Source of the DNA: an uncultured Acidobacteriia bacterium
GTDB taxonomy: Bacteria > Acidobacteriota > Terriglobia > Bryobacterales > Bryobacteraceae
Direction of reading: 5' to 3'
Assembly: GCA_903923395.1 (NCBI GenBank)
Contig: CAIXXM010000111.1
Span: 1-64,000, forward strand
Length of the DNA: 64,000 nt
Part shown: piece after piece, positions 57,961-60,994 of the stretch
Position numbering within the stretch: the stretch's first letter is position 1
Layout: each line of letters begins with the position of its first letter
Position numbers and translations under genes: made by a program
Notes under the pieces: model-generated
What the model was told of the DNA's origin: nothing
Database searches by the model: none
What the model saw: the letters and a program-made list of their open reading frames with translations, nothing else

Positions 57961-58464
57961 TTACAACTGAAAGGCGCTGGAGTAACGAACGCTGCCCCGC
58001 ACCCCCGCAAGAGCACCCTCCACCAATTCGAGCGCCATGAATGCCTCCGGCGGGAAAGGGCTGTGCAAATCCGCAGTTTTTTCCGCTGAAAACCCGAAGC
58101 GTGGATAGTACTCCTTGTGTCCGAGCACGATCACAATACGGCCGGCACTATCGCGGAGCCTGGCCAATCCGCAACGAACCAACTCGCTGCCAACCCGTTG
58201 ACGCTGATGCTCCGGCAGAACGGCCATAGGCGCTAACGAAATTGCAGCCACTGATTCCGCAGCGGTCTCAATGCTCATGCGGCTGAACAGGATATGACCA
58301 ATCACTTGTCCCTCCAGTTCCGCTACAAGGGAGAGAACGATGTCTCCGCCGTCCCGCAATCTGTCGATGAGATCTGCTTCACCGGCGCGGCCGAAGGCTG
58401 CTTCATTCACTTGGCGAATCCACGGAACATCTGCCGGTTGTTCCTCCCTGATCTGCAAGCTCAT
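57961..58464 (-). CDS. GNAT N-acetyltransferase, YhbS-like
   Basis: 167 aa. It has the GNAT order: N-terminal LQIREEQPADVPWIRQVNEAAFG, VAELEGQVIGHILFS, the acetyl-CoA loop LAPMAVLPEHQRQRVGSELVRCGL, and VLGHKEYYPRFGFSAEKT, which is typical of the YhbS branch. The acceptor substrate is unknown. ATG 58464 (or 58479) lies inside the end of the ECF42 sigma gene, an overlap of about 60 bp. It is therefore probably the third gene of that operon. Confidence 0.85.
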   Translation of the reverse strand: MSLQIREEQPADVPWIRQVNEAAFGRAGEADLIDRLRDGGDIVLSLVAELEGQVIGHILFSRMSIETAAESVAAISLAPMAVLPEHQRQRVGSELVRCGLARLRDSAGRIVIVLGHKEYYPRFGFSAEKTADLHSPFPPEAFMALELVEGALAGVRGSVRYSSAFQL

Positions 58465-59656
58465 GTGCCATTGTCCCATCGAATCTTTTCTGAAGAAACG
58501 CCAGTTCCTTCTCGTTTGTTGTCAGCGCGATTGCTTTTTGATACTCCTGCACCGCCTCACCATGCCTGCCGAGTCGCTGGAGCAAGTCCGCCCGCACCGC
58601 AGGCAACAGGTGATAACCGGGAATATCCAATTCCTGTATCCATTCCAGCCCTGCTGCCGGGCCTTGCGCCATCGCCACCGCCACCGCCCGGTTCAACGTC
58701 ACCACAGGAGACGGATACATACGCTCCAGCGCTCCATACAACGCCGCAATCTGCGCCCAGTCCGTTTCAGCGGCAGTTCCGGCAGCAGCGTGCAATGCCG
58801 CGATGGCCGCTTCGATGGCGTAGCGCTCACGACCGCCGCCTCGTCGAAGAACGTCTTCCAGAATCCGGGTTCCCTCACTGATCTGGCTTCGATCCCACAA
58901 ACTGCGATCTTGCTCTTCCAGCAGGACAATCTCTCCTGCGGCATCGGTTCTCGCCAGACGCCTGGAATCCTGCAGCAGAAGCATGGCCAGCAAAGCACGC
59001 GCACTGAGTGCCTCCGGCAACAGAGTCGCCACCAGCCGTGCCAGCCGGATCGCCTCTTCACACAGCGGACTCCGCACCAGTTCCGCACCGAAAGTCGCAG
59101 CATAGCCTTCGGTAAAGATCAGGTAGATCGTCGTCAACACGGCATCGAGACGTTCCCGCAGTTGCCCCTTCGCTGGCACGACGTAGGGAATGCCCGCATC
59201 ACGAATCTTCCGTTTCGCACGCACAATCCGTTGCGCCATGGTGGCGGGCGGGACCAGGAAACAGCGTGCTATTTCCTCTGTCGTCAAACCGCAGAGCGTG
59301 CGAAGCGTCAATGGAACCTGCGCTTCCACAGCCAGCGCGGGATGGCAACACGTGAAGATTAGACGGAGACGGTCATCCTCCCACATTTCGATTTCATCCT
59401 GATGCGCGGAAAGGTCGTGGTCCCGGAGCATCTCAAATCGCGCATTCCGCCGGAGGATGTCAATCGCCTTGAAGCGCGCCGTGGAAATGATCCACGCTGC
59501 CGGATTCGTTGGCGTTCCTTTCACCGGCCATTGCTCCACGGCAATGGAAAACGCCTCCTGCAGGGCTTCTTCCGCGAGGTCGAAATCCCGCAGGAGGCGG
59601 ATCAGCGTCGCCAGAATCGCGGCGCGGTGTTCCCGATAGACAACTTCTGGCGTCAC
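58403..59656 (-). CDS. ECF42-group sigma factor with long C-terminal extension
   Basis: 417 aa, about twice a simple ECF sigma. Region 2 (YREHRAAILATLIRLLRDFDLAEEALQEAFSIAVEQWPVKGTP, NPAAWIISTARFKAIDILRR) and region 4 (LRTLCGLTTEEIARCFLVPPATMAQRIVRAKRKIRDA) are followed by a DUF6596/TPR-like extension (about 185-400, with LLPAVRADLLQRLGRHGEAVQEYQKAIAL). This architecture and the DGPF-domain gene 5 bp upstream define ECF42. These sigma factors lack a normal anti-sigma partner; the extension is thought to control activity. Start is GTG 59656. A matching promoter precedes the operon. Confidence 0.9.
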   Translation of the reverse strand: MTPEVVYREHRAAILATLIRLLRDFDLAEEALQEAFSIAVEQWPVKGTPTNPAAWIISTARFKAIDILRRNARFEMLRDHDLSAHQDEIEMWEDDRLRLIFTCCHPALAVEAQVPLTLRTLCGLTTEEIARCFLVPPATMAQRIVRAKRKIRDAGIPYVVPAKGQLRERLDAVLTTIYLIFTEGYAATFGAELVRSPLCEEAIRLARLVATLLPEALSARALLAMLLLQDSRRLARTDAAGEIVLLEEQDRSLWDRSQISEGTRILEDVLRRGGGRERYAIEAAIAALHAAAGTAAETDWAQIAALYGALERMYPSPVVTLNRAVAVAMAQGPAAGLEWIQELDIPGYHLLPAVRADLLQRLGRHGEAVQEYQKAIALTTNEKELAFLQKRFDGTMAHELADQGGTTGRCSVDSPSE

Positions 59657-59661
59657 TGTTT

Positions 59662-60009
59662 TCAGAACTTCATCAGAGGGCGTACTTCAATGGAACCCAT
59701 CCGTGCCCCGGGAATGCGCGCGGCGATGCTGATGGCTTCATCCAAGTCCGCCGCCTCCACAATGTAGAAGCCGCCGATTTGTTCCCGTGTCTCGGCAAAC
59801 GGCCCGTCTGTGGCGATTGTCTTCCCCTCGCGGACCTTCACCGTCGTAGCGGTAGACGTCGGCAACAGCGGCGACCCCGTCTTGTAATGGCCACTCTCCC
59901 GGATCTCCGTGGTGAACTTCCAGTAGTCGGCGTACATTGCCTTCTTCGCAGCTTCGTCCATGGCCGCTTCCTCGGCTTCCGGTGTACAGATCATGAGCAT
60001 GTATTGCAT
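59662..60009 (-). CDS. YCII/DGPF-domain protein, ECF42 partner
   Basis: 115 aa: MQYMLMICTPEAEEAAMDEA..., with the name-giving DGPFAETREQIGGFYIVEAADLDEAISIA. The ferredoxin-like YCII fold is implied. DGPF proteins are nearly always encoded beside ECF42 sigma factors and are their regulon members; their biochemical role is unknown. ATG 60009 has AGGAG nine bases upstream. First gene of the operon DGPF-ecf42-GNAT. Confidence 0.93.
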   Translation of the reverse strand: MQYMLMICTPEAEEAAMDEAAKKAMYADYWKFTTEIRESGHYKTGSPLLPTSTATTVKVREGKTIATDGPFAETREQIGGFYIVEAADLDEAISIAARIPGARMGSIEVRPLMKF

Positions 60010-60034
60010 GGTTTGTTGCTCCTTTCACTGGATA

Positions 60035-60061
60035 GTCGAATGGGGCGGGAAAAATTCGACA
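60035..60061 (-). promoter_or_regulatory. Putative ECF42-type autoregulated promoter
   Basis: On the minus strand TGTCGA (60061-60056), then exactly 17 bases, then CGAC (60038-60035). As I recall, the published ECF42 consensus is TGTCGA at -35 and CGA at -10. The -10 element lies 26 bp before the DGPF start codon, leaving a short leader with AGGAG. The flanks GTCGAA/TTCGAC also form an inverted repeat. Confidence 0.7.
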
Positions 60062-60076
60062 GTCCCGGGGAAAATA

Positions 60077-60994
60077 TTATGCTGTGACTTGCACCGGGCG
60101 GGTCAGGTCCTGTCCGGGGAACGTGCGGTCGAGCAACTTGGCGAGTTGCGCTGTGGTTCCGGCATCGATATTGCCGCCCGGGTGCCGGACCCGTCCACTG
60201 TCGATCAGCCCCCGCCGGCGCAGGATTTCTTTGCGTACCGCCAGGCCTGGCTGCTGCTCAAACACCATCAGGGGCAGATAGCGGGTGTAAAGCGCGTAGG
60301 CCGTATCAAAGTCCTGTGACTTGGCTGCATTCACCATGGCGAGCAGCACCTCTGGGAAAGCGAATCCGGTGTTGAAGCCATCGGAACCGCGCTCCAGATC
60401 GAAATGGCCGTAAAGTCCGCCCAAGCCGGTGAGAACAGTGACCGGGCGCTCCATGGATTTCTTGAGCAGGGCGATTTTTCCGGGGCTCGGCACGGCCTCT
60501 GCCTTCACCGTGATGACGGAAGGGATCTCGCGGATGATTCGCAGAATCAAGGCGGCACTCATCTGGACTTCCGTGGACGCCGGGTGGTCCTGCAACACCA
60601 CCGGCACACCGGCCCCTTCTGCCACGCGCCGGTAATACTCGAAAACGGTATCGTCATTCGCGACGGGTTGCTTCGAAGGCGCGATCATGACGGCGGCAGC
60701 CCCCAGCGCAGCGGCTTCTTTCGAAAGGGCCACGGTGGCGGCAGTGCCGGTATGGCTACAGCCCACAATCACCGGCAGCTGACCCGCCGCGGCAACGGCT
60801 GTTTCGATGAGTTCGGCGCGCTCAGCATCCGTCAGTCGGTTCGATTCTCCCAGCACACCGAGCAGAGTCACACCGCTCACGCCCAAGCCGGCAAAGAAGC
60901 GGATCATCCGGTCCAGAGAAGGCAGGTCGAGGCTTTCGTCGTCAAGAAACGGGGTGGCGAGAATGGGGATAACGCCCGAGAGCTGTAGAGACAT
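60077..60994 (-). CDS. DapA-family (dihydrodipicolinate synthase-like) aldolase/lyase
   Basis: 305 aa TIM-barrel protein: GVIPILATPFLDDESLDLPSLDRMIRFFAGLGVSGVTLLGVLGESNRLTDAER at the start and IPSVITVKAEAVPSPGK containing the Schiff-base Lys at about 163. The usual YNxP tyrosine position reads VVLQDHPA, so the classical catalytic Tyr is missing. GGLYG also departs from the GGI loop of true DapA. It probably acts on another 2-keto acid and not in lysine synthesis. Exact substrate unknown. Confidence 0.8.
   Translation of the reverse strand: MSLQLSGVIPILATPFLDDESLDLPSLDRMIRFFAGLGVSGVTLLGVLGESNRLTDAERAELIETAVAAAGQLPVIVGCSHTGTAATVALSKEAAALGAAAVMIAPSKQPVANDDTVFEYYRRVAEGAGVPVVLQDHPASTEVQMSAALILRIIREIPSVITVKAEAVPSPGKIALLKKSMERPVTVLTGLGGLYGHFDLERGSDGFNTGFAFPEVLLAMVNAAKSQDFDTAYALYTRYLPLMVFEQQPGLAVRKEILRRRGLIDSGRVRHPGGNIDAGTTAQLAKLLDRTFPGQDLTRPVQVTA

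Follow-up and report, generated by a model that had tools for sequence, protein, structure and literature searches.

A predicted ECF42-type promoter precedes the YCII gene of a YCII–sigma factor operon in an acidobacterial genome

Introduction

ECF42 sigma factors with YCII/DGPF partners have been described in S. venezuelae (Sven_0747, Sven_7131, and Sven_4377) and in P. putida (ECF-10), as reviewed in PMC8999054. These proteins couple sigma2 and sigma4 regions to a TPR-type extension of ~200 residues or more, and they are encoded adjacent to a YCII-related gene with no anti-sigma gene nearby. The extension is reported to be needed for activity in other ECF42 members, and the review proposes a regulatory role for the YCII protein as well (PMC8999054). 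In S. meliloti, a YCII gene (SMc01151) lies directly upstream of the gene encoding the ECF42 factor RpoE10 (SMc01150), and the promoters of this system were mapped by 5′-RACE to sites of the form TGTCGG...CGTC (PMC6180224). RpoE10 targets there include other operons, and its over-expression was not accompanied by a rise of its own YCII-rpoE10 operon, despite the presence of a matching motif (PMC6180224).

Here, we describe an ECF42-type locus in a 64,000-nucleotide stretch of DNA (hereafter, the window) from an uncultured Acidobacteriia bacterium of the family Bryobacteraceae. The locus has in common with the S. venezuelae and P. putida systems a sigma2–sigma4 protein with a long TPR-type extension, the adjacent YCII-related gene, and the lack of an anti-sigma gene nearby. 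It differs from them in its lineage, in belonging to a genome where the YCII gene and the sigma gene of this type are each present once, and in a GNAT acetyltransferase gene, private to this genome, that overlaps the sigma stop codon. With S. meliloti it shares the gene order and the promoter type; the window promoter, in contrast to those mapped in that organism, is predicted from sequence, and it reads TGTCGA...CGAC. The pairing of an ECF42-type promoter with a YCII gene is an arrangement of a known kind, to which the window locus adds a new example.

Results

The gene for the DGPF/YCII protein (115 aa) occupies positions 59662–60009 on the minus strand of the window. Its product matches the YCII family (PF03795; 81 bits, E = 8.6e-23), contains the DGPF motif, and has 1s7i (PA1349) as its best solved relative (E = 1.5e-25). 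On the same strand, 5 nt past the DGPF stop, begins a sigma factor gene with a GTG start codon (58403–59656) that encodes a 417-aa protein carrying a C-terminal extension of helical repeats. The ECF core of this protein consists of regions 2 and 4 only, as is characteristic of ECF42 (Sigma70_r2 at residues 7–73 and Sigma70_r4_2 at residues 100–151), and is followed by DUF6596 (residues 169–268) and a weak TPR_8 match. AlphaFold2, supplied with an alignment of 50 sequences, gave a model of the protein with a mean pLDDT of 93, in which the extension (residues about 160–407) forms repeat helices at high confidence, and the best solved fold matches of the sigma factor are TPR superhelices; the protein thus has the TPR-rich C-terminal extension of ~200 residues that marks ECF42. 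Likewise typical of the group are the nearby YCII/DGPF gene (59662–60009) and, at the level of a promoter predicted from sequence, a TGTCGA...CGA/CGT-type site upstream of it. No anti-sigma domain was found among the scanned neighbors, which belong to the DHDPS, YCII, GNAT, solute-binding protein, and glutamine cyclotransferase families, and no group-specific ECF model of NCBIfam scored above cut-off for the sigma factor. A preliminary description of this DNA had identified an ECF42-type sigma factor with a DGPF partner; sigma2, sigma4, DUF6596, and the TPR-like extension support the first assignment, and the PF03795 match supports the second. Across the genome, we found only one gene for a YCII protein and only one for a DUF6596/ECF42 protein.

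Upstream of the DGPF gene lies a dihydrodipicolinate-synthase-family gene (60077–60994), and the 67-nt gap between the two (60010–60076) holds the predicted promoter site. By direct reading and pattern search of the minus strand, the site consists of a −35 element, TGTCGA, at 60061–60056, a 17-nt spacer, ATTTTTCCCGCCCCATT, at 60055–60039, and a −10 element, CGAC, at 60038–60035, followed by TAT; the preliminary description had given the same elements and spacing, which are confirmed. TGTCGA is also the top hexamer before the YCII genes of relatives in unbiased counting, the T-rich start and the [AG]TT end of the spacer fit conserved flanks, and a −10 of CGA type is the usual form in the clade of the window sigma factor. 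From CGAC, the minus strand continues through TATCC to AAAGGAG (60025–60019), a Shine-Dalgarno-like sequence for the DGPF gene visible by direct reading, and to the ATG at 60009–60007, such that the promoter site stands 26 nt upstream of the DGPF/YCII start codon (60009). The site matches the TGTCGA/CGA-type promoter that we take to be the ECF42 motif. The promoter is in addition a near-palindrome (60030–60061), its plus strand reading AGTCGA-N17-CGAC, one mismatch from the motif and directed antisense into the upstream gene. We rejected a bidirectional promoter: the A after the −10 that a full reverse −35 requires is not enriched in relatives, and there is no sign of selection.

To assess conservation, we drew on 121 genomes, taking the stretches that surround their ECF42-type and YCII genes. 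TGTCGA-N17-CGW occurs in the 200 nt preceding 58 of 119 YCII genes of relatives, versus 5 of 711 other ORFs from these loci (Fisher p = 2e-49, a nominal value, as related genomes are not independent). With spacers of 16–18 nt and the same distance limit, TGTCGA-N16-18-CGW precedes 52 of the 81 ECF42-linked YCII genes, versus a mean of 0.6 in dinucleotide shuffles, and 17 of the 41 that are not ECF42-linked, versus 0.3. When all hexamer-gap-triplet pairs were counted with no prior choice, the most widespread pair before the YCII genes of relatives was TGTCGA...TCG, and the spacer is 17 nt long in 60 of 70 sites. Under the fixed pattern, about half of the relatives' YCII genes have no recognizable site. 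The position of the window site and this conservation before YCII genes support the earlier proposal that it is an ECF42-type promoter. Several YCII genes with no ECF42 gene in the fetched stretch (L171, L173, L178, L185, L187, and L210) still carry the motif; in some relatives, ECF42 regulons may accordingly be distributed.

Within the 6.15-Mb genome as a whole, TGTCGA-N16-18-CGAY has 71 matches, versus 43 for a reversed control, and the matches fall nearly always within coding sequence. The short pattern alone is weak evidence; position and conservation give the site its significance. Using a matrix built from 59 sites of relatives, with the window site left out, we obtained 26.8 bits for the window site, the first among all positions of the 64-kb window (next best, 8.3 bits), with the core columns fixed by construction because the training sites were picked by their core letters. 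The window site also fits the flank preferences, which were not selected for: a T-rich spacer start, [AG]TT before the −10, and TA after it. Among strict TGTCGA-N14-16-TTCGW matches in the genome, it is the only one that is intergenic and has a well-scoring coding start at a suitable distance. For the other genomic sites, we retrieved the loci, evaluated their coding potential, and applied the matrix to the fetched loci. Further regulon members in this genome were rejected, with nearly all remaining matches inside coding ORFs; the next best by the matrix among fetched loci (L238, 18.7 bits) lies inside a flagellar-ATPase-like ORF, and the candidate at L265 is antisense to an ORF. Among the fetched and scored sites, the window site thus appears to be the sole ECF42 target in this genome.

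Loci in which the YCII and sigma genes diverge indicate which of the two genes the site serves. In the 13 such loci of relatives, the site faces YCII in 12 and sigma in 1; among 50 co-directional loci, 32 have it upstream of YCII and 1 has it directly upstream of sigma. By these comparative counts, the site goes with the YCII gene rather than with the sigma gene. Since it tracks YCII in relatives, feedback in the window would follow from co-transcription. No separate promoter site was found upstream of the window sigma gene, and a promoter scan of the region returned no sigma-70-like site on the operon strand. Positive autoregulation had been called expected on the ground that the sigma gene lies in the operon; the operon arrangement does imply positive feedback, and the expectation is weakened by the orientation of the site in 12 of the 13 divergent loci and by the YCII-rpoE10 operon of S. 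meliloti, which did not respond to RpoE10 over-expression (PMC6180224).

The GNAT acetyltransferase gene (57961–58479, minus strand; PF13508/PF13527/PF00583) shares 77 nt with the sigma gene, or 62 nt should an internal ATG at 58464 serve as its start, and it is probably co-transcribed with the sigma gene. Its homologues occur in 13 of 72 other relatives, never on an ECF42 contig. Among 60 ORFs that follow ECF42 genes, 2 encode a GNAT domain, those of the window and L116, and the others are diverse; counting relatives alone, 1 of 59 ECF42 loci has a downstream GNAT gene, and it is of an unrelated family. In that locus (L116:2425–2925), whose sigma factor belongs to the same clade as that of the window, the GNAT gene also overlaps the sigma stop, and the two GNAT proteins are unrelated (BLASTP E = 12). 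The window overlap falls in a C-terminal sigma tail of ~25 residues (58403–58480) that is absent from or variable in most relatives, and the want of a clear counterpart there suggests, on sequence comparison, that the GNAT/sigma overlap is a recent gene junction. GNAT as a conserved module partner was rejected, given homologues away from ECF42 and an unrelated protein as the only other downstream GNAT. Of the preliminary description's module of sigma factor, DGPF protein, and acetyltransferase, the overlap of the GNAT and sigma genes therefore stands; membership of the acetyltransferase does not, its adjacency being private to this genome.

When 72 ECF42-type proteins were placed in a tree, the window sigma factor grouped with those of L116, L155, L119, L123, and L125 (forks at 86–94, not starred). 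All of these loci have the order YCII then sigma, with the site 19–27 nt before the YCII start, versus 26 in the window. Promoters fall into sub-types: most sites read TGTCGATTY...GTTCGAC; a second sub-type has CGTC(GTA) as its −10; and a third, TGTCGAGAAT-N-CTCCGAC, lies ~50–59 nt before the start codon where the YCII gene neighbors a member of one ECF42 clade (L096, L114, L135, L138, L146, L148, and L165). The first two cluster on the sigma tree, where 0 of 500 label shuffles needed as few changes; for the third, a small group, 50 of 500 did. Judged by this clustering, the −10 variants follow sigma clades. Residues that might set the −10 type were sought and set aside, as columns that differ between classes exist and are inseparable from shared ancestry.

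Discussion

We consider it very likely, with a probability of roughly 0.87, that the ECF42-type sigma factor recognizes the site in the gap as the promoter of its own operon, giving a positive feedback loop. This reading builds on the observed site and its conservation, on where it lies with respect to the YCII and sigma genes, and on protein domains and structure modeling. RNA polymerase with the window sigma factor would bind TGTCGA-N17-CGAC, as conservation and co-location suggest, and the spacing would place the transcription start near 60028–60030. The DGPF and sigma genes would be transcribed from there, probably with read-through into the overlapping GNAT gene, and the presence of sigma in the transcript would close a feedback loop, the positive sign of which we infer. 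To judge from other ECF42 members (PMC8999054), the TPR-like C-terminal extension, and not an anti-sigma factor, probably controls activity. As its conserved output, the system would yield the DGPF/YCII protein, which may in turn act on the extension.

Of the other accounts, we would give some weight to one in which the site is ECF42-dependent and drives DGPF while feedback is negligible and a separate basal promoter supplies sigma; we regard it as unlikely. The association of the site with YCII rather than sigma where the two genes diverge speaks for it, as does the failure of RpoE10 to raise its own operon in S. meliloti (PMC6180224), but the sigma gene of the window shares a strand with the DGPF gene, starts 5 nt beyond its stop, has no separate site upstream, and lies in a region where the promoter scan found no sigma-70-like site on the operon strand. 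It is far less probable that the acetyltransferase is the functional effector of a dedicated three-part module of DGPF, sigma, and GNAT. The gene overlap makes co-expression likely, and a GNAT gene overlaps the sigma stop in L116 as well, in the same sigma clade; yet the homologues of the window GNAT in 13 other genomes are never on an ECF42 contig, the L116 protein is unrelated, and the ORFs downstream of ECF42 genes, these two aside, are diverse.

We give the least credence to a chance match, with the DGPF operon read from elsewhere, such as from the upstream dihydrodipicolinate-synthase-family gene. The 71 genome-wide matches are indeed not far above the 43 of the reversed control, but such an account is hard to square with the conservation before YCII genes (nominal p as above, from related genomes that are not independent), with the prevailing spacer of 17 nt, and with the top score of the site in the window under a matrix trained without it.

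The locus offers an exact ECF42 promoter prediction in a minimal case, a genome in which the sigma gene, the YCII gene, and a credible target site each occur once, and the promoter set from ~50 relatives is of use for work on sigma specificity. We tentatively suggest, at somewhat less than even odds, that ECF42 promoter specificity diverged together with the sigma factors, the CGAC/CGAT, CGTC(GTA), and TGTCGAGAAT...CTCCGAC clades forming parallel channels, often several per genome. If so, a sigma factor of the window type and its target would be insulated from paralogous ECF42 systems. Across the comparative set, the conserved role of the site would be to activate expression of the YCII protein, with or without a sigma gene downstream, which points to YCII as the output of these systems and to autoregulation as optional.
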